In this document: positions 367-20,086 of the stretch, piece by piece
Layout: each line of letters opens with the position of its first letter
How positions within the stretch are numbered: the first letter of the stretch is position 1
Made by a program: the position numbers and the translations under genes
Assembly (NCBI GenBank): GCA_902984215.1
Contig: CADWAF010004724.1
Location: forward strand, 1 to 20,086
DNA: 20,086 bases
Direction of reading: 5' to 3'
From: Willaertia magna
Taxonomy: Eukaryota; Heterolobosea; Eutetramitea; Acrasida; Naegleriidae
Notes under the pieces: model-generated
Told to the model about the DNA's origin: nothing
The model's input: only the letters and a program-made list of their open reading frames with translations
The model's database searches: none

Positions 367-2010
367 TTAAACTTCTGATGTCATTCTATGTTTTCTATTC
401 ACAAGTTTTAATTGACAAACAGAATCCAAAGTTAAAATAAATCCTCTTCTTTGATAAGGAACTCCAGAGTCAGCAATGTTATCACTTTCTTCAAACATTC
501 TTTCCTCAACATCACTTATTGGTAAATGTTCTAACCTAAATCTACTCAATAAATAAATTAAAAACACTTTCTGTTCAAGTAAACTAAAATTATTTCCTAA
601 GCATTTCCTTTGACCCAAACCAAAAGGTAAGAAACTACAAGGAGGTCTTTCCTTACGTTCTTTTTCATTAAAACGTTCTGGACGGAATTCATTCGCATCT
701 TCGCCCCAAATGTCTGGATCATGATGTAAACTATAAATATTGAAATTACAACAACATCCTTTAGGTACTTTATACCCATCAATAATGATATCTCTTTTAG
801 AAATAATTCTTTGTAAAACCATTGGTGCTGGAGGGTTTAATCTTAAATTTTCATTAATTGTCCAATTTAAATATTCAATACTATGAATCTTAGGAATATC
901 ATCTACAGTAAGTAGTTTATTATCAATATTTGGGAAGACTTGATAAATTTCTTCATATAACTTTTGTTGGATTTGAGGATAACTAGCTAGTTCATACATT
1001 AAGGTACTTAAATTACTTGAGGTTGTTTCGTGTCCTGCAAGGAAGAATAATACAACATTATCACGTAATTCTTGGTTAGTCAACTTGTAATCAGCATCTG
1101 GAGAATCAGTTGCAACAATCATTAAATCTAATAAAGTATTTTCAGATAATCTTCCATTTTCCTTAAATTCTTTTCTTTTCTTATCAATTACATCATAAAT
1201 TAATTTATCAAAAGTTTCTAAACTTTTTCGCATTTTAAAGTTTTCTGAAAAAGGAAGAGAATAATATAATTCTCTTAATAATAAATATTTTGGGTTGAGA
1301 GTATTATTTATAATATATTGATAAGCTTCTAAAGCTTCCTTTTTAAATTGTTCTTCCTTATTATTGACATCTATATTTCCATAAGAACCAACATAATTAA
1401 AATCAAATCCAAATCCTGCAATACTGATGGCATCTAATGTCATTCTTGTCATAAAATCTTTTGGTTTAATAATTGAATAGTTACGTTGATCTGATAAAGT
1501 TGATTCTTGTTCAATTCTTTCTACACATTGAATTACCTTTTCAGAGAAAATAGTTACAAAACGATCTGTGTTAGTAAATGCTGGATTAACAACGTGACGA
1601 TTTCTTTCCCATTCTTCTCCATTCATAACTACTAAGCTACTTCCTGAAAACTTTCTTTGAACAGGAGAGGCAATAGAATTAAATTTCTCTACATCTTTAT
1701 AATTAATGAAAATATCTTTTGCTGCTTTTGGGGTACTGAACATAACTACTGGACGTAAATTAGCAAAGTAAAATACGAATGGTTCATAATTGAATTTGTT
1801 AACATAGTCAAAAAATTTTAAAACCATTGGACGATTAAAATTTGTCATCATTTTAAAGGATTGGTATAAAGTTAATGTATTTTGTAAAGGTTTACCAGTT
1901 GAAACATTTACAATTCTATTTTTACAAATTGTTTCATAAATTTTAATAAAATTGTAAATAAATGTAACTAGTAAAAGAGGTGCTAGAATTATCCACCAAA
2001 GAAGCCACAT
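367..2010 (-). CDS. cytochrome P450 monooxygenase, microsomal type
   Basis: A 547-residue haem-thiolate monooxygenase, probably anchored in the ER membrane and fed electrons by a cytochrome P450 reductase. Its substrate cannot be read from sequence. Visible in order: an N-terminal hydrophobic anchor (about 2-22), the C-helix WxxxR (W134, R138), the I-helix oxygen-activation motif AGHETT (325-330), the K-helix ExxR (E387-R390), PERF (444-447), and the haem loop FGLGQRKCLG (463-472) with Cys470 as iron ligand. All core residues are intact and the length is normal for eukaryotic class II P450s. The overall pattern is nearest to CYP3/CYP4-like clans, which is inference. The start is an ATG at 2008-2010 immediately before the anchor. 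No intron is needed. It lies in tandem with the ferric reductase gene, 284 nt apart. Confidence 0.95.
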   Translation of the reverse strand: MWLLWWIILAPLLLVTFIYNFIKIYETICKNRIVNVSTGKPLQNTLTLYQSFKMMTNFNRPMVLKFFDYVNKFNYEPFVFYFANLRPVVMFSTPKAAKDIFINYKDVEKFNSIASPVQRKFSGSSLVVMNGEEWERNRHVVNPAFTNTDRFVTIFSEKVIQCVERIEQESTLSDQRNYSIIKPKDFMTRMTLDAISIAGFGFDFNYVGSYGNIDVNNKEEQFKKEALEAYQYIINNTLNPKYLLLRELYYSLPFSENFKMRKSLETFDKLIYDVIDKKRKEFKENGRLSENTLLDLMIVATDSPDADYKLTNQELRDNVVLFFLAGHETTSSNLSTLMYELASYPQIQQKLYEEIYQVFPNIDNKLLTVDDIPKIHSIEYLNWTINENLRLNPPAPMVLQRIISKRDIIIDGYKVPKGCCCNFNIYSLHHDPDIWGEDANEFRPERFNEKERKERPPCSFLPFGLGQRKCLGNNFSLLEQKVFLIYLLSRFRLEHLPISDVEERMFEESDNIADSGVPYQRRGFILTLDSVCQLKLVNRKHRMTSEV

Positions 2011-2294
2011 TGTGTTCTTGAAATGTTAGTTAATTTTTTTGAATTTACAATCTCCAATCAATTTTTGCTTTTAAATAAATACTTTCCAATAAAATTTATA
2101 GTTAAATGCAATATAAGGAAATAATGCAATTGGAGTTTTTATATTTAAGATAAATAGATGGTCGTATTAACGTACTTGCGTTGTTTTAAAAAACTCCAAA
2201 TTGACCGCTTAATTGAATGTATTAACTTGACTTCTTTAAGAACTCAAAATTTTTATAATATTATACATTTCGTTACAAAATTGTTGTTGTAAAA
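2011..2294 (-). promoter_or_regulatory. upstream region of the P450 gene
   Basis: This 284-nt AT-rich spacer holds the P450 promoter and the 3' end of the ferric reductase transcript. Two copies of the 10-mer TGGAGTTTTT lie here, at 2131-2140 on the plus strand and 2189-2198 on the minus strand. The same 10-mer occurs upstream of the ferric reductase gene. No core promoter element is identified with confidence. Confidence 0.4.
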
Positions 2295-4439
2295 TTACAT
2301 CTCAAAAACTTCTTTGTGTAATTGGAAACGAGCTCCAGAGCAAGAAGTTTTTTGAATTGCATTTTGTACATCAACTAACATTTCTCTTGGTCCACAGGCA
2401 AAAACACCAATAGTGTGTGTTTGTTCTGTATTAAAACCAATTCCATATAAATAGTCTTTAAAGTTAGGTCTTCTTCCATAGTTAAATCTTTTATCTGTTT
2501 CTGATCTATCATTTGATTTTCTAGTCATGTAGAAACTATATTCTACATTTTCTCTCTTTTCTAATAATTCAGGAAATAGTTTTAATAAGCTATCATCTTT
2601 CATAGTCCAAATTACATGATAAGATTTTCTAGAAGTATTCTTTTGATTTAACATTAATTCAGTATAAAGAGAATTAATAAATGTAATACCAATACCTCCA
2701 GCAATTAATACAATTGTATCATAAGTGTTAGGAGAAATTGACAATCTACCATAAGGTCCTTCAACCCTTGCAAGTAAATTAATATTATTTCCACCTTTCT
2801 TTTGTGCATAGTTTGCCAATTCTTTTGTCCAACCACGTCCCATGTTTTTAACACAACAAGTAAATTCAACATATGACCCATATTTTGTATAATTGCTAAT
2901 ACTAAATGGATGCCACTGTGCAATACTGACAGCTGGAATGTATAAATAAACAAATTTACCATATCCTAACCTATCAAATGAATAGAAAGTGATTGCTGAC
3001 TTTTGTAAAGTACAAACTGTGACACCTGAATCTTCGTGATATTCCAAGTTGACCACCTTTGCAGGTACAAAAAGTCCTAATACTATTCTAAGTAAATGAT
3101 CCAATACCAACAAAACTAAAGATGCTGCAGTGATAGGTAATGTTTTTGTTAAACCACCACCGTGAATATTAACCAAAACAAGGAATGGAACACCAAATAC
3201 AAAGTGAACTACTTTAAACAATTCCCAAAATCTTCTTCTAATTGGTTCAAAAGTAAATAAAACAAGAATAGTCATACAACCCCACGCAATAACACCCAAT
3301 AATGGATAATCATTAGCTTCCATTGTAAATATTTCAGTAATATTATCAGCAAATTCAACGATCATAGCAATTGCATGAGCTCCAATTGCTAAATAGGTAA
3401 ATCTTGCAATCCATTTGTGGAATTTAATTGCTCTCTCAAATGAAACTCCAAAGATAAACATAAATACTGAATATCTAGTAACAGGAACTACAAGGAAAGC
3501 AACATTTAATATGTTAAGGTAACCCAAGCCTTTAGCAACGTGCTTTGATTTTGAGTGTAAAAAACCATAAGTGAACCATGAGGCTGCTAAGGCTAAGTAA
3601 GTAAATACCAATATTACTTCACCAATTGTAATATCTAATATTGGGTTTAATAACCAATGTCCTAAATACTTATTCTTAATTAAAGGGAAGAATCTTTTAT
3701 GGAATATAAAATCAATTGGAAGAGAATGAGATTTCCAACCAATAAAAGTATAAGCTAAACCAATGAGTATCATTAAGCCTACAACTGAACCTGTCGCTAC
3801 TAAATGGAAAGGAAATACGTACTTTCTTGGTGGAGTAGGTGGCTGTGCTAGATCCATAAAGTTAACTGTTGTTTTCCCTGCATTGGTATGTTTTTTAGTA
3901 ATATCCTTAGTATTTGTATTCCATGCATAACTTAAATTTATAGTTGCATTCCTTATTGGTTTATCTGTGTTAGTATCTTTGGTATCAATATATCTAGTAA
4001 ACTTTAATGTAGTTATTCCAGTATCACTATTGTAAGCACCATTTATTTCCAAGATATTATTTATACCACTTAACTCTCTATCATCCTTAGGAATTGATTT
4101 TCCAGGTAAATAAGCGTCTACAACGACAGGAGCTTTCTTTTCAACATCATAATATCCAATGTAACAATCTGCTTGATTCATAGGGCTATTTACAAAATCA
4201 ATACCGATAGACATCCAACCACTAGTTTTTCCTTCCAACGCAAACTCAATGATATCATCAGAACCAACTTTTCCGGTTTCTTTTTGGTTGATAGACCAAT
4301 ATAAATTAAATCCTTCTAATAATTTTAAAGAAGAACTGTATTCGCCAGACTGAATAGTTGGAGTTTTAATATTTGCGGAAACAAATATAATACTGAATAG
4401 TAGCAGAGAGAATAAAGTAGAAAGAAGGAACGATTTCAT
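2295..4439 (-). CDS. DOMON domain-ferric reductase / NADPH oxidase-like fusion
   Basis: A 714-residue membrane flavocytochrome that probably moves electrons from cytosolic NAD(P)H through FAD and two haems to an extracytoplasmic acceptor such as ferric iron or oxygen. In order: signal peptide (about 1-22); a lumenal or extracellular DOMON-like beta domain (about 38-195) with the typical GWMSIGID and QADCYIGYYD segments; a first membrane helix (208-234); and a ferric-reductase transmembrane core. Two haem-ligand pairs are visible, H341/H355 and H412/H426, each with 13 residues between. These are followed by the FAD site WHPFS (509-513), the nucleotide-binding LIAGGIGIT (578-586), ACGPREM (681-687) and an ending HKEVFEM, as in the FRE/NOX family. 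All catalytic landmarks are present. DOMON domains bind haem or sugars in other proteins. No EF-hands are seen, which speaks against a calcium-activated NOX. The ATG at 4437-4439 begins the signal peptide. Confidence 0.92.
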   Translation of the reverse strand: MKSFLLSTLFSLLLFSIIFVSANIKTPTIQSGEYSSSLKLLEGFNLYWSINQKETGKVGSDDIIEFALEGKTSGWMSIGIDFVNSPMNQADCYIGYYDVEKKAPVVVDAYLPGKSIPKDDRELSGINNILEINGAYNSDTGITTLKFTRYIDTKDTNTDKPIRNATINLSYAWNTNTKDITKKHTNAGKTTVNFMDLAQPPTPPRKYVFPFHLVATGSVVGLMILIGLAYTFIGWKSHSLPIDFIFHKRFFPLIKNKYLGHWLLNPILDITIGEVILVFTYLALAASWFTYGFLHSKSKHVAKGLGYLNILNVAFLVVPVTRYSVFMFIFGVSFERAIKFHKWIARFTYLAIGAHAIAMIVEFADNITEIFTMEANDYPLLGVIAWGCMTILVLFTFEPIRRRFWELFKVVHFVFGVPFLVLVNIHGGGLTKTLPITAASLVLLVLDHLLRIVLGLFVPAKVVNLEYHEDSGVTVCTLQKSAITFYSFDRLGYGKFVYLYIPAVSIAQWHPFSISNYTKYGSYVEFTCCVKNMGRGWTKELANYAQKKGGNNINLLARVEGPYGRLSISPNTYDTIVLIAGGIGITFINSLYTELMLNQKNTSRKSYHVIWTMKDDSLLKLFPELLEKRENVEYSFYMTRKSNDRSETDKRFNYGRRPNFKDYLYGIGFNTEQTHTIGVFACGPREMLVDVQNAIQKTSCSGARFQLHKEVFEM

Positions 4440-4784
4440 GTTGTGAATAAATTTTCCTAAGGGTCCCGTATCAATCTACCAATAGAATTTTTTTATTTGT
4501 CAAAAAACTCCAGTTTTCTTGTTTGGAAAGACATTTAATAAACAAAGGAAGTCCTTTTAAGGCTTTGGTTTCATATTTTTCTTAATGTCTTTAATGATGG
4601 AGAAAGAAATTTCAAACCAAGGTCTTTGCCTCAGGTGTCTAAGGTCTTTGAAGATTTGTAACCTTAATTGTTCTGTTACGAACAAATTTATCAATTCATG
4701 TTTAGATTTATTGTAGTTATTAAGATAGCCAGGGGTTTTAGACCTTTAGTTGTGAATGGTACTAATTGGAGCAAAAACAAATTG
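4440..4784 (-). promoter_or_regulatory. upstream region of the ferric reductase gene
   Basis: This 345-nt stretch has no gene. It holds the ferric reductase promoter and the 3' end of the next minus-strand gene. It contains TGGAGTTTTT on the minus strand (4503-4512) and a direct repeat AAGGTCTTTG at 4619-4628 and 4641-4650, starts 22 nt apart. Whether these bind a regulator is unknown. Confidence 0.4.
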
Positions 4785-5876: not shown

Positions 5877-6138
5877 TGTTTTATTATTAGTTAATTACAT
5901 TCCTTGTGTTAAGAAAGTCTTTTTAAAATTGTTGTTAATTGAATGTTAAATTTAGAAAATTATTTATATTATTATCAAGCATTATAATTTAATAAACTTT
6001 AACCTTTCAATAATTGTAGTGTTGTTGCTATTGTAACCGTAAATAAAAGATTGTAATGAGATGTGAAGAGTGTCTCCGTACACTTGCCTGATTTTCAGGA
6101 AAAAATTTTACAGTCACCAAAATATTAAAAGAAAGAAA
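5877..6138. promoter_or_regulatory. divergent promoter region
   Basis: The 262 nt between two head-to-head genes must contain both promoters. The plus-strand frame stays open leftward to a GTG at 6070, but no ATG lies there. The first in-frame ATG is at 6139 in an A-rich context, so this stretch is taken as untranslated. Confidence 0.5.
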
Positions 6139-8362
6139 ATGGGTCAACAACAAACAATAACCTCTCTTGACACAAGAAACAACAATTCCGAACAACAAAT
6201 TAATCACGATAATATTATTGAAGAAGACTTTCACTCCATTTTAAAAGTGAAAAGTGAAAATAAAGAAATTTTAAAACAATTTGAATTGGCGAATGAAAAG
6301 TTTAAAATTCAACAATTTCAATTGGCTTCTAATTTATTTAAAGAAATAATTAGTTATAAAAATTTAAATATTTTAATTGAATTATATTCTTATTTTTATT
6401 TATCTTTATGTTTTTTAAATGAATTTCATTTATGTCAATTGTCAAAAAAGAAAAGTATTTTAATTGACATGATAAGAGAAGAAGAAAAAGAAGAAATTAA
6501 TTATAAAGATGAAATTAATTTTAATGATTTAAAAATAATAGTTTTTAAAATTTGTTTAAAATATTTAAAAATTGGAATTGAAAAGAGTGAAAATTTAGAG
6601 AATGAAGAAATTTATTTTAATTTTTTATATTTTTATTCTAATTGTAATTTTGAATTGGAAAATTATAGAAAATCTTTACAAAGTTTACAAAAAGCCATTG
6701 AAACGTTAGAAAATAATAATAATATTAAAATATGGGAGAAACAATTTAAAAATTTTAAGAAAAAACCACTTTTCAATAAAGATAATTTACCTTTTCAAAA
6801 TGTCAAAAATCAATTACATTTTGAAAAGGCAATTAACTATTATTTACAAAGAAATCACAATAAATCTTTAAATGAAATTAATAATATAACAGAGGAAGAA
6901 AATGATATTTTACAAAAAATTGAAATAAATTTATTAAAAGGACATTCTTATTTAAAATTACAAAATTTTAAACTTTCAGAGATTGAATTTACCAAAATAT
7001 TAACTTTACAACAAGAATTATTACAAAAAACAAATAACCAAATATGTCCATTTAATATTGAAGGATTATTTGGTTTAAGTTTATTATTTTTACAAAACTC
7101 AAATATTTACGATCAAGCCAATGAATTTATTTTAAAAGTTTTAAAATATAGTGATAGAAATTATTTTAAAAGTTATTTATTTTATTTTATTGCTGCTAAA
7201 ATAAGTTTATTACAAAATAAGAATTTAATGTGTTTAGAATATTTATTACAATCAATTAGTATAAATAATAAAGATAATTATAATTCTAAAAGATTATTTA
7301 ATTTATTGAAATTAATAAATCCATCAATTGTCAATAATCAACTTGAAACTTTAATGATTGAAGAAAAGAAAAAAAAGAAATTACAACATTTTGAAATTAA
7401 AAAATTAAAGAATGAAAATTTATTTATTTTAAAATCAAAAGATTTTCCATTAAAAGAATTTATTGGTAAACGAATTTCAAATTGTGTCATCCATCAAAAA
7501 GTTTTACGTCAACTAGAAAAATTAAATCATTTAAATCTTTTACAAAATACAATTATCTTAAAAAAAGAAAAGAATGAAATTTGGTTTATTTCTGAAAAGA
7601 ATACAAAATTAATTTCTTTAGAAAAATTATTATCTGACAAATCTATTCATTTAAATTGGATTGATAAAATTAATATTTTGATTGATGTGGCATTTGGCTT
7701 GAAAGAATTAGAAAAGAATAATTTAATTCATGGATATTTAACATCTAGAAATGTTTTAATTAAATTATTAAGCGATGATGATTTTAACACAATTATTTGT
7801 GATTATGGTATTTCTTCTTGTCAACCAATCCACATTGACAGTAACCAATCAGCGGAAAATACTGACTATCAATCAAATAACAACGACTACTCATTCCATT
7901 TAGAAAGAGTTCTAAATGGAAGTAGTTTAATTTATACATCCCCAGAACTTTTTGAAATACATCATTTTACAATGAATAGTGACATTTATTCATTTGGTAT
8001 TTTAATGTACGAAGTATTCTTTAGAATTAAACCTTATTCTTTAAATGAATTTGATTGTAATAAGGATTATATTTTAACTAGAGAGAATTTTAAGAAATAT
8101 TTTGTAAGTGATGAAATAAGACCAATTATTCCATCACAAGAAGAAAGATTTAAATTATTAAATATGGAAAATAGAGAATTTAATGAACATGAATTAAATT
8201 ATATAAATTTAATGAAAAAAGTAAGTAAATAATTGTCACAACTGGTAATCTTACAATTCTTAATAGTGCTGGGATAGTGATGACTCAAAAAGACCATCCT
8301 TTGAGCAAATCTTAAATATCTTATATCAGTTATACATTCACGCTTATCCTTGCTTTCAGTAA
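6139..8362 (+). CDS. TPR-like repeat protein with C-terminal TKL-type pseudokinase domain (spliced)
   Basis: Two exons, 6139-8220 and 8267-8362, encode 725 residues. The ATG at 6139 gives MGQQQT, a good N-myristoylation signal (Gly2, Thr6), so membrane association is likely. Residues about 50-400 are helical and TPR-like, with repeated F/Y-L-A spacing. A kinase fold follows: a possible ATP lysine K439 (FPLKEF), HGYLTSRN (531-538) replacing HRDLKxxN, DYG (555-557) replacing DFG, SPE (601-603) and SDIYSFGILMYEV. The catalytic-base Asp is Tyr533 and no glycine loop is evident, hence probably a pseudokinase or weak enzyme. Unspliced, the protein would stop at 8232 inside subdomain XI. Removing the 46-nt intron restores CWDSDDSKRPSF (695-706), the conserved end of kinase domains. 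The likely role is a scaffold in signalling; the partners are unknown. Confidence 0.8.
8221..8266 (+). other. intron in the pseudokinase gene
   Basis: The donor GTAAGT at 8221 directly follows a complete Lys codon (phase 0). The acceptor is TTAATAG ending at 8266. The 46-nt intron contains in-frame stops. The downstream exon reads CWDSDDSKRPSF, which matches kinase subdomain XI and continues correctly from NYINLMKK. Protein-level continuity is the main evidence. Confidence 0.85.
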
Positions 8363-10946: not shown

Positions 10947-12788
10947 TTAATATTTAATTGATTCAATTATTTGTTTTAAAGGATTAAAACATTGTTCATA
11001 ATTTAAATTTTCAATATTAATTAAATTATAATCAGATAAATTATTTTTAACAAACATATCTAATGTATTTATAATATTATTAATAAAATCTTCTATTAAA
11101 CATAAACAAATACCTTTAAAATATTTCCATTCTTTTTCATCTTTTAATTCTTTATCGAATTGTTCTTTTGCATCTATCATTACATTAGTAATTGGTTCTA
11201 ATAATAATGTTTTAATATCATTTCTAACAATTTGATGAATTAAATCAATTGGACAACAACATTTTAATTCATTTAATGCTAATAATACATCATTTAACAA
11301 CTCTGCAACTGGAATATATTCTAATATCTTGTTATTCTTTACCTTTCTTATACCAACACCAACACTAGTATTAACATTACTTGTTGTTGTATTAATAACA
11401 TTAGATAAATTACTACTTTGAATATATTCTTTCCATTTATATTTATTTCTAATAGATTCATTAAAATGCATTACACTTTTAGTTAAAGAAATTTTAAATG
11501 TAGAATGAACTTTAAATGTGAACCAATGAACAATTAAAGGTCTAAAATCAATTCCAATTTTACTTAAAATATTTCCACAATACATACATTCTTCTAATAA
11601 TTTATTATATTCTTCACCAGTTAATGTTGTATAATTATTTACTTCATTTATTGTATTATTATCAGTAGTGTTATTTAATTGTTGTAAATAATGAGATAAA
11701 GTATTTAAATAAGGTTGAATTAAATGTAACATAAAACTACTTAAAATAAAATCAGAATTACCAAATACAGTTTTATATTGAGTAACAATATCAAATAAAG
11801 TAACTCTAAAATAATTTGTTAATTTAGATAAATATAAATAACAATTTAAATGTTGTTGAAATTGTATATTTAATAAATTATAATTTTCTTGTAATGGTAT
11901 ATTTCTACATTGTAAAAATAAAATTTTTAATTCTTCTTCATTTTCTGTAATTTGCATTCTTTTTAAAATTGAAATTATTTGTACACTTGTTTTAATATTA
12001 CAATTTTCCTTTTTTAATTTTGTAATTAATTGATTAATCATTGTAGATATTATTTGATCAATTTCTATTTTAAATTTATCTAATAAAGGAATATTTAAAT
12101 GTTGAGAATATAAATTTAAAAAACTTTCATATAAATCTAATATTTCAATATACATTTGATTTTGTAAACATTGTCTAAATATTTGTGGAAATTCAGTTAT
12201 TAAAAGTAATTTATCACTTTGATCGATTGACATTTGAATTTTTTGTTTTTCAAATTTATATTGTTGTTGTCCTGTTAATTGTAATTCTTCTAATGACTTT
12301 TTTAATCTATCAAATACATTATTATTGTTATCTTTATTATTTAAGAATAAATCTATAGCAAGATTCTTTTCTTCTTCTTCATTTCTAGCCTTTGATAGTT
12401 TTTGATAAATTTGTTGAAAGTTTAAATCTTTTCCAAAAAGAGATAATGTTTTTTCTTTTAATGTTTCATTTAAATTTTTAATATTTTTAAAGTTTTCTTC
12501 TGTTTGTAAAAAGATATTATAGTTTTTAGCAGAAAGTTGAATCATTTGTTTTCTTAAATTTTCTAATTTTTCTGGTAATTCATATTGTTGTTCATATTGC
12601 AATTGTGAAACACTTTTTTGAGATAAATCAATTGTAAATGATTGTTGTTGACTAAGATAATTGTTATTTAATAGTGGAGAAGAAGTAGATGAAGAAGCGA
12701 TCGGAGAGGAAGGAGAGGAAAGAAGAAAAGGCTTATTGGGACTTGTTGTTTGTTGCATTTTTTGCTTTTGGTCTGATCGGAATTTCAT
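10947..12788 (-). CDS. COG8: conserved oligomeric Golgi complex subunit 8 (Dor1-like)
   Basis: A 613-residue subunit of the COG tether, which captures vesicles in retrograde intra-Golgi traffic. COG8 belongs to lobe B and contacts COG1 and COG5-7. Recognition rests on the N-terminal Dor1-type helical region (about 70-330), with a coiled-coil-like start and EFPQIFRQCLQNQMYIEILDLYESF, and on the hallmark YCGNILSKIGIDFRPLIVHWF at roughly residues 400-420. The length is close to animal COG8. The first 45 residues are a Ser/Pro/Asn/Gln-rich disordered leader. No intron is needed. The ATG at 12786-12788 faces TAF2 across a short divergent spacer. Confidence 0.9.
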   Translation of the reverse strand: MKFRSDQKQKMQQTTSPNKPFLLSSPSSPIASSSTSSPLLNNNYLSQQQSFTIDLSQKSVSQLQYEQQYELPEKLENLRKQMIQLSAKNYNIFLQTEENFKNIKNLNETLKEKTLSLFGKDLNFQQIYQKLSKARNEEEEKNLAIDLFLNNKDNNNNVFDRLKKSLEELQLTGQQQYKFEKQKIQMSIDQSDKLLLITEFPQIFRQCLQNQMYIEILDLYESFLNLYSQHLNIPLLDKFKIEIDQIISTMINQLITKLKKENCNIKTSVQIISILKRMQITENEEELKILFLQCRNIPLQENYNLLNIQFQQHLNCYLYLSKLTNYFRVTLFDIVTQYKTVFGNSDFILSSFMLHLIQPYLNTLSHYLQQLNNTTDNNTINEVNNYTTLTGEEYNKLLEECMYCGNILSKIGIDFRPLIVHWFTFKVHSTFKISLTKSVMHFNESIRNKYKWKEYIQSSNLSNVINTTTSNVNTSVGVGIRKVKNNKILEYIPVAELLNDVLLALNELKCCCPIDLIHQIVRNDIKTLLLEPITNVMIDAKEQFDKELKDEKEWKYFKGICLCLIEDFINNIINTLDMFVKNNLSDYNLINIENLNYEQCFNPLKQIIESIKY

Positions 12789-12921
12789 GAAAATAACAAA
12801 ATTTTTCGTTTTATTATTGAAAAATAAATATGAACCAAAAGTTAGGTGGGATTTTTCACTTGGTTGAAGGGCCCAGTTTAAAATAAAAACTAGTGATAAA
12901 TTTGTTTAACGCCAAAAAAAA
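12789..12921. promoter_or_regulatory. bidirectional promoter between COG8 and TAF2
   Basis: Only 133 nt separate two divergent start codons, so both promoters and both 5' leaders share this interval. It is AT-rich with an A8 run just before the TAF2 ATG. A short GC-rich patch (GGGCCC, 12869-12874) is the only palindrome standing out. No defined core element is recognised. Confidence 0.5.
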
Positions 12922-15900
12922 ATGTTAAGCGATGATTTGATGGACGGTGATCAAATAATGTTGGGAACATCTGGCGGGATGAACGGAGAGTCGAATGGTT
13001 ACGTTGGTAATCATCATCCTAATAATCTTATCCCATCGGAAAACACTGTAAATGACAATAACAAACAACAAAAGGAAAAGAAAAAAAAGAAGAAGAAAGA
13101 AAAGAAAGGAAAAAACTCGGAACCACACTTTCCTTTCAAAGTTTTACATCAAAAACTTGTAATAGATGTAGATTTGTTACAAAAATCAATTGTAGGGTAT
13201 ACAGATATTAAATTTACTCCATTACATAATAATACTACACAAATTTCTCTTCATTGTTTACAATACAGTAAGTATCCTATTCTTCATATAAAAACATTTT
13301 TTTCTAATAATTTTTTTTTTTAATTTTATAATTTTCTTATGAAGATGTTTCTGGGGTTGTAGCCTTATCAATTAACAAACACAAACAACAAGTTGCTAAC
13401 GGAAACTCTGATCTTAATACTTCTATGAATGGCTCCGTCAATAACCATCAACAATCAAATGAAGAATTAAAAGTTGAGATTTCCCAATATCAAAGGGATG
13501 AAGATAGTTCTAACAGAGATTTAGAAAAGGTTTATAAGGATTTAGTCTTAGAGTACAACATTACAAATGAAGGCACTTTAAATATTACTTTCCAAACTCC
13601 TTTACAAAAGAAAACAACTTCAACCATTAGAGTTTATTTTGAATTATATAAACCTAAAGCTGGAGTTTATTTTGTAGATCATAAAGTTGTAAAGAACAAG
13701 AGTAAGAAAAAAGAAACAGCAGATGAAAATAGAATGGTTGACGATGAAGATAAGATGGTTGATGAAAAACAAGATGAAGTTGAAGAAGATGATGTAACTT
13801 TGCCTTGTCACATGTATACTCATAATCAATTACAAGGTGCTAGATGTTGGTTCCCTTGTGTTGATTTACTTTATTCATATCATACTTTTGAATTTGAAAT
13901 TACTTCTCAAGCTGAGGCAATGATTATTTGTTCTGGAGAATTAATAAGACAAGTTGAAAATTATTCAGGTACCTTAAAAACCTCTTATTTTAAAACTAAT
14001 TCAATAATGTCACCATCATCTGTTTGTATTGCAATAGGTCCTTTTAATATTTCATATACAACATTAGCATTAGGTTCACATAACATTACTTTTAATACAT
14101 TCTATTTACCAAAGTATTCACTTGATTCCATAAGACATACAGTTAGTTTCTTTAAAAGAGCTTTTTCATTCTTTGAAGAATATTTAGATTTGAAATACAA
14201 AGATTTATTTAATAGTACAACATTCAATTTAGTGTTTGTTGAAAATTTATTTACTAAACAAGCTGCCTTTGGTACAACATGTTTAATAGATGCTACTAGA
14301 ATGCTTGTAGAAAAAAGTATTATTGATGTTGTACAACCAAATAGAATTTCATTAACTAAGTTAATAGCTGAACAATATTTTGGAAATTTCATTCACCCAA
14401 AAACCTGGTCAGATTATTGGTTAATTGTTGGTATTGCTGGATATTTATCTCATCAATTTTATGAAGTTGAATTTGGTCAAAATGCAAAACGTTTCTTTAT
14501 ATTACAGGAAGGTAAAAATTTATTAAAGCTTGAAAAACATGTACAAACATTGTTTTGTGAAAAGTTTTCACATCCAGTAGAGATGGTTACTCCTTATTTA
14601 TTAATGAAAGCACCTCTAGTTATTTATATGATTGATAGACAAATATCTACTTCTAATATGAGAAGATTATTAAACAAAATATTAACCTCAGCCTTAGCAG
14701 ATCAATCTAAGAGATATAATGATAGATTAGTTTCAACATCAGCTTTTATTAAGACAATTGATAAAACCTTTGCTGTAGATTTGAAGCTATTTTCCTCTTA
14801 TTGGATTTATGGTACTGGTATTCCACAATTTGCATGTTCCTTTAAATATGATGTTAACAGAAGTTGTGTGGATTTAAAAGTAAAACAAATCTTACAATCA
14901 CCAGAAATGCAACCTTTTAGAGGGAAAGTTACCTTTAGAATTAGCGAAACAGAAGGCTCACCTAATGATTTCTTAGTTGACTTAGATAAAGATGAAAATC
15001 AATTTGAATTCCACATTAATGCAAAACCAGTTAAGAAACAACACAAGAAGTTAACTGGTGTTACAACAGAAGCAACAAGAATTAAAATCCCATTAAAATG
15101 GATTCGTATGGATCCAGAACAAGATTGGATTAAGGTTCTTTCTTTTTCACAAACACAAGAAATGTGGAGACATCAAATTGAAGAGGTTAAAGATGTTGTA
15201 GCCCAATATGAATCAATTAATGCATTAACTTTCTTCAAAGACACAGAAGAAGTAGTTGGTAAATTAATTGAAATACTAATGGATCAATCTTATTACTACC
15301 AAATTAGAATTTGTGCAGCTCACGCCCTCTCTAAAATTCCTCAACGTATTGTGAAGGAAAAAGCATTGGGTTATTTAATTAACTTTTTTAAAACTCAATT
15401 TTATGATGAAAAACAATTATATTTAAAACCAAATAATTTTACTCATCGTAACTTTGCTGAATATTTCATCAAAGAAGAAATTCCATTAGCTTTAACTAAT
15501 TTTTATGATGAAAAAGTAAATAACGAAACACAACCTGAAGTAATTCAATTTTTATTAGAATTATTTAAATATAATGATGATTCTGATAATATGTATTCTG
15601 GTGATTATTATATTGCCTACTTACTTAAGGCTCTAAGTTTAATTAATACTCCTAACATGAAATTTAAAGATAAAATTGTCAAGATTTTACATAAATACTT
15701 GGTAATAGATTCTGATTTAATTCCAAGCTTTCATTATGTAAAGACTGTTTATGCCATTGAAGGTATTTCACACTTACAAGCAACTGGAAAAATTCCTGTG
15801 AATATGAATTTGTTCTATAGATATTTAGATTTTAATTCTTCAACTCATGTAAGACTTGCAACCTGGCAATCAGTTTTGACAATATTAGATTCTACTTTAA

Positions 15901-18524
15901 TTAATCTTGTAAAGCCCCAACCAACTACTGATAATATTACCGTTGTAACGTCAAAAGGGGAAATATCTGATTTATTAACTAACCCATTAATTGAAGATGT
16001 TAAATTTATATTTTACAAGTTTCTGGAGGTTTTACAAGATGAAAATGAATCCGCTTATTTCAAACATAAAGTAACTTCTATCATGGTAAATGCAATTTAT
16101 CAAAGTTCAGCACAAATGTTAATGCAATATAACTCCAACAATAGCTTAATAGACACTAGAATTATGGATCAATTTTCAGCATTTGGTAGATTTTTAATAG
16201 AAATAAGAGCACCTAAAATTGAAAATAGAACGTTGGTTGATTCTCTTTGGCATTACATGCTTTTCTCTCCTTTTACCAGATATGATTTCAGATTAAGGTC
16301 AGTAATGGTTGAGCTCTATGCCGCAATATGGTCATCTCTACCACTTTGTTATGAAATTAGGGTTGTCTCCTCAAACAAATTTAATCATGCACTTTTGCTT
16401 GCTCCTTCACTTTCTGGTATAACTGATTTAAAGATTGTTCAACCAACACAAATAGAAAGTCATAAATATTTGGCTAGTGACCAAACTATAATATTTGACT
16501 GGTCTAATTTATCAACAATGATTAAACCTCCAGAGATTCAAAAGATCATAGAAGAAATAAGGGAGAACGACATAGCAGCAACCAAACAATCAACTGACAC
16601 TAGTTCACAATCCACAATAAGTACTACAAAGAAAGATAAAAAGAAGGAATCAAATAGTAAGAAGGAATCTAGCAGTAAAAAAGATAAAGAGAAAGAAAAA
16701 GAAAAGGAAAGCTCTTCAAGTAAAAAAGAAAAGGAGTCATCGTCTAAGAAAGATAAAGAATCTAGTAAGAAAGAGTCAAGTAAAAAGGAAAAGAGTTCTA
16801 CCAAAGAAAAAGAAAAGGAAACATCAAAGAAAGAAAAGGAAAAGGAGAAAGATAAAGATAAAGAAAAGGAAAAGGAGAAGGAAAAAGATAAGGAAAGTGA
16901 AAAGAAAGATAAAAAGAAGAACGATGCCAAGAAAAGAAAAAGAGATAAAGAAAAAGAAAAGGAGTCAACTACAACTACATCTACCAGTAGTACTAAATCT
17001 TCTACTGATAAAAAGAAGAAAAAGAAAGAAGAAACAACTAAGGAAAGTAGTAGTAAAGAAGCGCCACCAACACCAAAACTTAAAATCAAACTTTCTGACA
17101 CATTTACAGAAGAAACAAAGGCATCAAGTAGTAATGTTACTACTGTTTTACCTACTGCTGTTATTCCAGAGGCCAAATCAGAAAAAGAAGAAAAACGTTT
17201 AATGGAAGCAGCACAAAAAGCAAGAGAAGAAAGAAAACATGATGAAAGTAGGATTATATTTATTAATATGGTACAAACAAATATAAGAATGTATATCTTA
17301 TTAGATAATACATCCACGGCTAATGCTATTTATAGAAGTGTCACATTAACTTCTGATGGTGTCAATTGTTCCAAAGGAATTATTTATTTTGCCATTAATG
17401 GAGTAGAACAAATTAACTTAGAATCTGACAATAGAGCAATAGTATCCAATGGTGAAATTGCTTATTGGGTTTCAGGAACAGCTATTGTAATTGGTTATGG
17501 TAAAACTGAGTATTCTACAGGAAGTGAAATTAGATTATATGAACCATGTAATATATTTGGTAAGATGCTTTATGAAAAGAAAGCATTAAATAGATCGGCT
17601 AAAGAAAAACAAATTACTATATCACGTTTACCAAGATTAACAGTAAACATACCAAAGATTAATGAATGGATTAATATTGATTTTTACAATTTAGAATTCC
17701 CAGAAGTTTATCAACATGTAATTGAACAATTACCAATTCATAGCAGACCTGAATTATTTGGAGAATTAATTTATTTCCCATTACGTAATGTTTTTGTACC
17801 ACCTAAGGATGCTATCCATCATGACCAAGGAACAATAACTGATGCAGTTCTATATAGAGATTATCTCTTACCTGGAGAGGTTGCTTTTTGGGTTAGTGGT
17901 AATGCACTTTTATTAGGTACAGGTCCTACACCAAAAGTAAAGACAAGTAGGAAATCAGTACCAACAGAGAAGTATGGTTTGTTAGAGAAATGTTATGTTA
18001 TTGGTAGAATTACATCTGGTGATTATCATTCTCTACCTTCTAAAGTTCAAAATAATGTTTGTGAATCATTGTATTTTATGTCAAGAAAAGTTAAAATTAC
18101 ATTTGAAATGAATGATGGAAAATCTAATTATATGGTTGTATTACTTAAGGAAACAGTAACTGCAGATACAATATTTAATGCTCTTCCATTAAATATTGAT
18201 AACCCATATGTAGATAAATCTTGTTTGGCTATTGCTTTGGATGGAAATATTGACACTTTACAACATGAAGTTAGTTCCTCCAAAGAAAATGTGGAACCAG
18301 GTGAGATTGCATTGATTTGGGATAGAAATAATACTATTTTATTTGCACAAGAAAGTTCAAAAGATAGTTATTCCCTAGGTGAAGTTTGTAATATATGGGC
18401 AACATTTGTCTCCAGTAGTAACAACATGGATTATTCTAAATTCGTTTCTACCTTAAAGAAAAATGTAAAGAATATTTCTAATGTTATTATGGAGAAGTAT
18501 GTCGCAATTAACCCAATTAAATAA
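12922..18524 (+). CDS. TAF2: TFIID subunit TAF2 with C-terminal triple cyclophilin-like extension (spliced)
   Basis: Exons 12922-13267 and 13345-18524 encode 1841 residues. TAF2 is a TFIID subunit that helps recognise core-promoter initiator DNA during RNA polymerase II preinitiation complex assembly. Residues about 70-620 form an M1-aminopeptidase-like body (HQKLVIDVDLLQKSIVGYTDIKF; WFPCVD at 284-289). The zinc site HEXXH is replaced around 455-462 (LIAEQYFG), so it is catalytically dead, as in other TAF2s. The segments LKWIRMDPEQDW and DVVAQYESINAL then lead into HEAT-like helical repeats to about 1150. A Lys/Glu/Ser linker spans about 1195-1361. It is followed by three domains resembling TM1367/DUF369 cyclophilin-like barrels (about 1418-1526, 1538-1674, 1696-1808). 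The extension is unusual for TAF2. Exon 1 also carries a poly-Lys stretch. The start ATG at 12922 is the only in-frame ATG that precedes the conserved N-terminus by a reasonable distance. Confidence 0.92.
13268..13344 (+). other. intron in TAF2
   Basis: The donor is A|GTAAGT at 13268. A T-rich tract with a T13 run (13309-13321) precedes the acceptor TATGAAG ending at 13344. The phase-1 junction creates an Asn codon and joins LHCLQY to VSGVVALSINK in the frame of the downstream exon. Unspliced reading stops at 13323. A second AG at 13361-13362 is also in frame and would drop six residues. Confidence 0.85.
16610..17070 (+). repeat. Lys/Glu/Asp/Ser low-complexity tract inside TAF2
   Basis: An almost purely purine coding strand built from AAA, AAG, GAA, GAT and AGT codons encodes strings such as KEKEKDKDKEKEK and SSSKKEKES. 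It is expected to be disordered or a charged single helix, and it separates the TAF2 body from the cyclophilin-like domains. Unlike a pure trinucleotide repeat, the codons are mixed (AAA/AAG, GAA/GAG), so selection at protein level is likely. The opposite strand gives a long Ser/Phe/Leu artefact frame. Confidence 0.9.
17250..18440 (+). other. three tandem TM1367/DUF369-like domains in TAF2
   Basis: The three copies share a GE(I/V)A-centred motif at residues 1485, 1625 and 1767, spaced 140 and 142 residues. Copy 1 has GEIAYWVSGTAIVIGYGKT followed by EPCNIFGKM. Copy 2 has GEVAFWVSGNALLLGTGPTP followed by EKCYVIGRI. Copy 3 has GEIALIWDRNNTILFAQ followed by GEVCNIWATF. This pattern of strand, turn and 'N(V/I)xG' ending is that of the small cyclophilin-like barrel family known mainly from bacteria and archaea. 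Copy 3 is the most diverged. Confidence 0.75.
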
Positions 18525-18752: not shown

Positions 18753-20086
18753 TTAGTTTTTCAAACAGGCTCCATCTCTATTGATGAAAGTGGTTAAAAA
18801 ATCCGCAAAAAAACTATTGAAAAAGTTTGGAAAACAACTTCTATCAATAAGCATTAATTTTGGACAAGGTAAAACTTTGGTAACCTTATCTTTAACATAC
18901 GTCAAACAGCCTTCGTCTGAAATCATATCTTTGGTTGCATTTGATGCTTGCTTGTTGGTAACTAAAAGTACGTATTTTTCTCTAGTTGTAATATTAACTT
19001 TTAATGCTTTTTCATAAAACAAAGCAATGTCTCCAGGTCCATAACTTTCATCCTTACTATTCTCTTCTTGAAGCTTTGCTTGAGTTACAATAATTGCTTC
19101 TTCTTGGTGTGAATTTGGAAGTGTTAGCTTCATATTACAACTTATCCCATCAACGCCGAATTCCCTTGCTTTTGTTTTTTGAAATTTTGTATCGCTACAA
19201 TCAGAATTTGACACTGAATGATCTAATGTTCCGAAAGAATATGAAGAATTTTTGTTGTTCACAGTTACAACAGCCTTACCAATTGTTGATGGATAAATTG
19301 CTCCTCTGAACAAGTTTTTGAATTCTACTTCACTGCTATTTTCAAAAAGTAATGTAAATCTACACATTAATGTTTGCAAAATTATCTCTTCAAACTTTTC
19401 ATGTTCTGGCTTTTTGGACATTACAAAATTTTCGAGTATCACTGCAAACGTAGGGTCTAATTTTCCCATCATGACCAGAGGTAATTGAGGTTTTCCATCT
19501 TTTTCATAAATCAAGCCTTTTTGTTTTAAACTTTCCACAACTAACATTTCGTTTGAAAAAATACTTAACGGAAATCCTGAAAGGCAAATCAGAGCAATTC
19601 GTTTTAGGCTAGGATTATCCATGAAATGCATGTAGAGTTGAAAAACTTGATTTGCGACTGATCCATAAATATTGTTCATCAAAGTGTCAACATTTATATG
19701 TGGAGTGGAAGTAACAAAATCTATACCTTTCCTTATAGCCCATTCTAAATGTCTAGGAACACAACCAATAACATCCCAAATCAGTTTTGATCTTTTGGAA
19801 TAGTAGGGCTTTAATTTATCATGCTTGATAACAATGGATTCAGTGTCTTCTTCTCTCAAGCAAGGTAGAGATAAATCTATTAAACTGGCCAAGTGATCTG
19901 TAGGAGTAAATTCAATATCTGTAGATGTAAGAGTTCCTCCAAAAGCAGGGATTATTAAAAGACCATGTTCTTTTTGTAACGTCCTAATATACCAACTTAT
20001 TAAATGTTGTATATTTGTACCCAACTTTGGAAAAGACCTGGTTGCCATTTGAAATTCATCAAACGCCAATATAATAGGAATAGGAA
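18753..20086 (-). CDS. P-loop NTPase plus restriction-endonuclease-fold protein, Crinkler-like (5' truncated by window)
   Basis: The frame runs off the window edge, and about 443 C-terminal residues are seen. An apparent start at 20069 is a TTG inside a Walker B strand. Upstream codons read PIPII, giving PIPIILAFDEFQ with the DE pair, so the Walker A part lies outside. Next come a sensor-like strand (LLIIPAFGGT) and a helical lid. The C-terminal part has REFGVDGI, then AIIVTQAKL, about 25 residues apart. This is the D...QxK arrangement of PD-(D/E)xK nucleases. Short conserved pieces GPGDIALFYEKAL and KYVLLVTNKQ follow. NTPase plus nuclease is the architecture of Crinkler-type proteins, known as effectors in oomycetes and chytrids and as expanded families in free-living protists. 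Family assignment is by motif only, and activity is not established. Confidence 0.6.
   Translation of the reverse strand, partial: PIPIILAFDEFQMATRSFPKLGTNIQHLISWYIRTLQKEHGLLIIPAFGGTLTSTDIEFTPTDHLASLIDLSLPCLREEDTESIVIKHDKLKPYYSKRSKLIWDVIGCVPRHLEWAIRKGIDFVTSTPHINVDTLMNNIYGSVANQVFQLYMHFMDNPSLKRIALICLSGFPLSIFSNEMLVVESLKQKGLIYEKDGKPQLPLVMMGKLDPTFAVILENFVMSKKPEHEKFEEIILQTLMCRFTLLFENSSEVEFKNLFRGAIYPSTIGKAVVTVNNKNSSYSFGTLDHSVSNSDCSDTKFQKTKAREFGVDGISCNMKLTLPNSHQEEAIIVTQAKLQEENSKDESYGPGDIALFYEKALKVNITTREKYVLLVTNKQASNATKDMISDEGCLTYVKDKVTKVLPCPKLMLIDRSCFPNFFNSFFADFLTTFINRDGACLKN

Follow-up and report, generated by a model that had tools for sequence, protein, structure and literature searches.

A TAF2 protein with three C-terminal cyclophilin-like domains of prokaryotic type in Willaertia magna and related amoebae

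Few components of eukaryotic gene expression are as strongly conserved as the general transcription factor TFIID. A locus of the heterolobosean Willaertia magna raises the question of how three cyclophilin-like domains of a prokaryotic type came to be joined to the TFIID subunit TAF2, and what they might do there. The DNA analysed here (the window) comprises 20,086 nucleotides and is the entire contig C787 (CADWAF010004724.1) of a 19.2-Mb assembly. The fusion is found in seven of 23 different TAF2s; every domain copy has lost the motif that is most conserved in the prokaryotic family, and related domains occur in two other open frames of the same genome. TAF2 with a C-terminal triplet of barrels is apparently a new, undescribed architecture of a known protein. 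The literature on TAF2, TFIID, PF04126, Naegleria and Heterolobosea names no TAF2-PF04126 combination within the coverage of the search, which leaves out most subscription journals; precomputed domain lists do show it.

A single open frame of 1730 codons extends from 13332 to 18524 on the + strand. Joining it to an upstream exon yields a spliced TAF2 of 1841 residues with the following parts:

12922..13267, + strand: exon 1 of TAF2, with the ATG at 12922; the spliced translation agrees with the deposited Willaertia protein P0001
13268..13344, + strand: intron of 77 bases, with a GT donor at 13268 and an AG acceptor ending at 13344, spliced as in P0001
13345..18524, + strand: exon 2 of TAF2, open up to the stop
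14154..15881, + strand: TAF2 core (Pfam; solved TAF2 chains)
14154-14747, + strand: weak Peptidase_M1 match, under the cut-off (Pfam)
14817-15152, + strand: TAF2_3rd (Pfam)
15162-15881, + strand: best stretch of TPR_TAF2_C (Pfam)
16584..17246, + strand: low-complexity linker rich in Lys, Glu and Ser, limits set by eye on the translation; tandem repeats at 16641-16960
17247..17624, + strand: cyclophilin-like copy 1, GEIA at 17451 (residue 1485)
17634..18056, + strand: cyclophilin-like copy 2, GEVA at 17874 (residue 1626)
18084..18413, + strand: cyclophilin-like copy 3, divergent, GEIA at 18300 (residue 1768)

The original prediction, made from the DNA alone, had described an uninterrupted frame leading from a TAF2 body into three repeats. 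Both elements were borne out: the frame is open throughout and contains all three units, and Pfam assigns TPR_TAF2_C (2.4e-37, 129.1 bits) and TAF2_3rd (9.8e-17, 61.9 bits), both above their cut-offs of 27. Solved chains named TFIID subunit 2 match the core at 1.9e-78, and M1 peptidases and factor F3 do so at 1.8e-4 at best. By sequence, the protein groups with solved TAF2 and not with aminopeptidases. Of the GE(I/V)A signatures, which had been placed at residues 1485, 1625 and 1767, the first is correct and the other two are each one residue low. Two long frames in other registers overlie the linker, at 16538-17329 (- strand) and 16621-17202 (+ strand); they are taken as shadows of the Lys/Glu/Ser-rich coding sequence.

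It has to be considered whether core and triplet are parts of one protein at all, since they could stem from separate transcripts or from a processed product. The deposited model ABK040_005934 (P0001, 1807 residues) is 100% identical over the searched region; it lacks 35 residues of the linker in the 1841-residue translation. The missing residues fit a 105-base in-frame GT...AG stretch from about position 16656 onwards, which would be a predicted intron. Moreover, the linker is repetitive, and a paper on a W. magna genome, in which genes were predicted by BRAKER2 from RNA-seq and protein data, notes limits of its gene prediction in Discoba (PMC11702301); the assembly of that paper may be the one from which the ABK040 models stem. 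On the other hand, the frame is open and preserved with or without the 105-base stretch, and both parts occur in seven protein records from separate sources. A gene-model artefact is accordingly a highly improbable explanation.

These records were retrieved by a search that depends on shared short words and may therefore miss other excavates. PF04126 is present in the TAF2s of W. magna, Naegleria gruberi and Naegleria fowleri and in the records P0002, P0004, P0008 and P0009. Because these separate records share the order of parts, the fusion is not an artefact of the W. magna assembly. All seven carriers have the three domains in fixed order, and they span two deep lines. PF04126 is absent from 15 TAF2s, namely eleven from named animals and fungi and four that group with them; P0023 and P0024 were rescanned, and the rest were judged on precomputed domain lists. 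The remaining sequence, P0007 of Naegleria lovaniensis (C9374_008417), ends at 1343 residues, before the triplet region; it is probably a broken gene model and is uninformative with respect to the fusion. In a tree of the TAF2 core, from which the module was left out, a branch with 100/100 support separates the seven carriers and P0007 from the other 15 sequences. Given this grouping, P0002, P0004, P0008 and P0009 most plausibly come from heteroloboseans as well. Thus, the architecture, which had been considered without known counterpart, is not private to this genome: it is common to Naegleria and to the P0004/P0008/P0009 group. Animal and fungal TAF2s share the M1-like body, TAF2_3rd and TPR_TAF2_C with the window protein, whereas none of the 15 found contains PF04126. 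The fungal TAF2s of Dipsacomyces and Coemansia (P0018-P0021) likewise possess an extra domain in a single lineage; however, this is a bromodomain (PF00439), presumably on the C-terminal side, a eukaryotic reader and not a triplet of prokaryotic-type barrels.

The assignment of the copies to a PF04126/TM1367-type family, as originally proposed, was substantiated for the first two, which score 66.5 and 34.8 bits against PF04126 (cut-off 27). Taken by itself, copy 3 gives no PF04126 match at E <= 1; its best match is PF18050 with 16.1 bits, under the cut-off of 22.7. PF12903, the second family suggested beforehand, does not appear among the matches at E <= 1, and a scan of NCBIfam returned no family. 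Three lines of evidence argue that copy 3 is a divergent PF04126 descendant. First, it is retrieved by the intact third copy of P0009 at 3.8e-7 with 36% identity. Second, P0004, P0008 and P0009 have three PF04126 stretches apiece. Third, a profile of the four divergent third copies matches the prokaryotic profile with a probability of 95.3%, compared with 0.26% for the same set reversed. The highest of four reversed controls, reversed copy 1, reached 47% over 29 columns. The nearest solved chains by sequence are AF2241 (2nnz, 1.4e-6), followed by TM1367 (2ka0 and 1zx8, 0.003-0.004); a staphylococcal enterotoxin chain of the Protein Data Bank (E-value 0.054) was taken as a chance match. Structure prediction, in which six of the relatives were included, models the triplet as TM1367-type barrels. 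Rank 3 of the structure search with the triplet was chain J of 8s7v, which has 499 residues and belongs to the methyl-coenzyme M reductase activation complex (E-value 9.7e-6, 564 columns, root-mean-square deviation 27.6). It is perhaps another string of barrels, in archaea.

The most conserved motif of the prokaryotic family is W-G-x-E before I-Y-F (WGxE), a definition that is our own reading of the alignment and not a published criterion. It is found in 129 of 134 prokaryotic rows, or in 124 of 129 distinct ones, five having been fetched twice. Two of the five rows without it read W-K-E-E and retain the glutamate, whose column is 1.00 among filled rows in the alignment of 128 of the 134 rows. 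None of the 21 TAF2 copies has the motif; its W and G are retained in two of the three intact third copies. Of the 21 copies, 17 have retained a second motif, G-[DET]-h-A/G/C/V-Y/F/V-W: it is present in all seven first and all seven second copies, in the three intact third copies and in none of the four divergent ones. This combination, loss of WGxE throughout and retention of the second motif in most copies, suggests that the ancestral activity is gone and that the scaffold was kept. The initial account of the triplet has to be amended in this respect: every copy is devoid of the hallmark of the prokaryotic family, and copy 3 has decayed in the window.

The retained second motif around G-E-h-A-Y-W, and the fact that cyclophilin-like folds also occur in the small-molecule enzymes KslB and McbB, would be in accordance with barrels that bind a small molecule and render TFIID responsive to a metabolite. 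KslB and McbB are, however, bacterial biosynthetic enzymes (Pictet-Spenglerases) whose cyclophilin-like parts share 13-15% identity with the triplet. Loss of WGxE from all 21 copies also speaks against a sensor, and so does the genomic context in prokaryotes, where ten chosen genes adjoining the domain belong to unrelated pathways and do not indicate a common one (RadC occurs twice, beside L004 and L005). The commonest neighbour family is found at 8 of 58 prokaryotic loci, at variable distance; the four of its nine members that were scanned are short-chain dehydrogenases, which are too common to tell much. Other recurrent neighbour clusters are mostly confined to close relatives. We regard a metabolite sensor as very unlikely.

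Some classical nuclear cyclophilins are thought to act as prolyl isomerases at promoters. By analogy, the triplet could be a working isomerase or foldase acting there on the tail of RNA polymerase II, on histone tails or on activators. Yet identity to classical cyclophilins of the cyclophilin A type is 7-14% in the structure-comparison table, and Pfam lists no classical cyclophilin family at E <= 1, either for the whole protein or for its pieces. In addition, the prokaryotic family is described as a domain whose function is unknown and whose cyclophilin-type fold is atypical (PMC2954229). The isomerase explanation is thus quite unlikely. The features common to the triplet and PF04126 (Cyclophil_like, with TM1367 and AF2241) are the profile of copies 1 and 2, the fold and the second motif. 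Prokaryotic members, in contrast, are mostly small and single-domain and contain WGxE; here, three tandem copies without the glutamate are part of a eukaryotic protein of 1841 residues.

The degree of conservation differs between the two lines of carriers. Between W. magna and P0002, N. gruberi and N. fowleri, identity is 66-69% in the core, 50-55% in copy 1, 36-44% in copy 2 and 31-36% in copy 3. The corresponding values between P0004 and P0008/P0009 are 57-59%, 60-67%, 51-55% and 47-58%. As judged from these identities, conservation of the module roughly equals that of the core in the P0004/P0008/P0009 group and is lower than that of the core in Naegleria and Willaertia. These values bear on the possibility that the triplet is mere evolutionary ballast, which became fixed by chance and folds but does nothing specific. 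The decay of copy 3 in Naegleria and Willaertia and the lower conservation of copies 2 and 3 relative to the core would be expected of ballast. Three domains in fixed order in seven of seven carriers over two deep lines, and near-core conservation in one of these lines, would not, and we consider this explanation unlikely.

The history of the copies was deduced from three trees. The first contained 58 prokaryotic rows, whose choice is biased by the pattern scan that supplied them, together with the 21 TAF2 copies and the domain of a second W. magna protein described below. Copies 1, 2 and 3 each formed one side of a branch (support 99/98, 100/99 and 93/84), as did the prokaryotes (96/91). For a tree of 156 rows, 76 of 86 new loci were used; four repeats, three partial or weak loci and three below the cut-off were omitted, and five of the 76 (L129, L131, L132, L142 and L144) are genes already in the set. 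Here, copies 1 and 2 again each formed one side, both with 100/99. A third tree of 129 rows was restricted on the eukaryotic side to copy 1 and intact copy 3, and the ten eukaryotic rows were joined with 88/86. It omits the seven second copies, the ARID domain, the four divergent third copies, nine long or partial rows and six archaeal rows, five duplicates among them. These branch patterns indicate that the triplication most likely predates the split between the Naegleria-Willaertia line and the P0004/P0008/P0009 line.

With respect to origin, a scan of the genome collection gave 84 pattern hits, of which 58 were confirmed as relatives. The best three are L004 (Hyphomicrobiales, 34% identity), L005 ('Bacterium MnTg02', 35%) and L006 (Hyphomicrobiaceae, 33%); the fifth-best, L008, is from Archaeoglobaceae (31%). 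As had been anticipated, the relatives are mainly small single-domain proteins: 57 of the 58 frames, as extended here, comprise 85-185 residues, and L038 is an overlong open frame. PF04126 exceeds the cut-off in 25 of 289 genomes of the class of L004 (Hyphomicrobiales), 16 of 229 of the class of L011 (Gammaproteobacteria), 23 of 199 of the phylum of L053 (Ammonifex) and 48 of 196 of the phylum of L013 (Archaeoglobi), each set including its centre genome, which was picked for having PF04126. Because the family is widespread in prokaryotes and restricted to one clade among TAF2s, entry from prokaryotes is favoured. The acquisition by transfer that had been assumed at the outset is hence supported by distribution, and a prokaryotic origin of the domain is likely; it is unproven, as the unrooted tree is also compatible with the reverse direction.

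The trees incline to proteobacteria as donors. Copy 1 has in common with the proteobacterial rows the letters [IV]-[GA]-[FY]-[GSA] and C-N-I or C-S-I, at sites where other prokaryotic rows mostly have C-[IVLF]-F-[FY]-G and V-N-V. The first tree separates 50 prokaryotic rows, with 100/97, from the eukaryotic rows and eight others, seven of which are named Pseudomonadota. In the 129-row tree, 78 rows are cut off with 98/91, and the eukaryotic rows join the proteobacterial ones weakly (72/73). For a viral or mobile origin no source was visible: a scan of viral contigs gave 15 pattern matches, none of which was confirmed, and phage and plasmid records contain no match to copy 1 of P0004 at E <= 0.01.

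The domain is not limited to TAF2 in W. magna, a point by which the original prediction has to be extended. Two further frames carry it:

481-2331 of L002, contig C108: 616-residue frame with an ARID/BRIGHT domain (5.1e-14) and one PF04126 domain (6.6e-11)
73-2376 of L148, contig C44: 767-residue frame with a copy-2-type domain (copy-2 query match 8.7e-13)

The first, deposited as ABK040_007864, is the genome's sole PF04126 match at E <= 0.001 besides TAF2. Its domain lacks WGxE and has the second motif. In the first tree it joined copy 2 (87/71), from which nothing was drawn, as the 156-row tree points to a meeting of two long branches at this place. The domain of the second frame is 30% identical to copy 2 of the window over 129 residues and matches the copy-2 profile with 99.3%. 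Pfam yields only matches under the cut-off for this frame (Med25_VWA with 17.2 bits, PF04126 with 14.4), and the search of structure chains gave no solved relative. No stand-alone copy was seen in searches of the 19.2-Mb assembly, which may be incomplete, because the W. magna row in a table of the genome paper reads 47.61, presumably Mb (PMC11702301). One may speculate that these amoebae have a nuclear interaction system of their own, which began with a cyclophilin-like domain acquired from bacteria. Triplicated on TAF2 and passed on to other transcription proteins, such as the ARID and 767-residue proteins, the domain would let these proteins meet and would connect TFIID with chromatin factors in a way that animals and fungi lack. 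We put this forward tentatively, as an idea more doubtful than probable.

Taken together, the following scenario appears to have somewhat better than even chances. A small prokaryotic-type cyclophilin-like domain (PF04126) would have been acquired by an ancestor of these amoebae, become attached to the C-terminal end of TAF2 with a long basic linker in between, and been triplicated before the two lines of carriers parted; the triplet would since have been retained as part of one protein. The prokaryotic function, itself not known, would most likely have been lost, as the copies are without the glutamate motif, and what persists in copies 1 and 2 is the second motif together with the barrel. 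The triplet may then serve as a flexibly tethered docking module, which recruits TFIID to a partner protein or keeps such a partner in place at the promoter. Several observations weigh against this scenario. Within Naegleria and Willaertia the copies change faster than the core, and the absence of the second motif from copy 3 in all four carriers of this line fits weakening constraint. Copy 3 does not form one side of a branch in the 156-row tree. With respect to the donor, approximately unbiased (AU) tests rejected neither a tree with the proteobacterial-type rows as one side without the eukaryotic rows (likelihood 4.7 higher, p 0.55) nor one with the eukaryotes beside Archaeoglobi-type rows (53 lower, p 0.08). 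Among 7999 candidates scored, the ARID protein had no relatives except its own deposited model. Finally, presence in TFIID, nuclear location, binding to partners and the direction of transfer are all inferred.

In any case, a TFIID subunit has gained three copies of a family that otherwise stands alone in bacteria and archaea, and their retention most likely goes back to a time before the split between two amoebal lines. Should the triplet dock partners, basal transcription in a group with a human pathogen among its members would employ parts missing from animals and fungi, and the general transcription apparatus would have incorporated prokaryotic material. With similar domains in the two other Willaertia frames, the question of partners is directly testable.

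The window contains further genes. A 443-residue frame at 18753-20084 (- strand), open at the contig end, has no Pfam match at E <= 0.001; by eye we take it to be ATPase-like, of a kind seen in protist effector-like families. A cytochrome P450 is encoded at 367-2025 (- strand), and a 726-residue frame with a DOMON domain and a ferric reductase with FAD and NAD binding domains at 2295-4475 (- strand). A kinase-domain protein with a long N-terminal part follows at 6067-8232 (+ strand), and a Dor1-like subunit of a Golgi complex at 10947-12905 (- strand).
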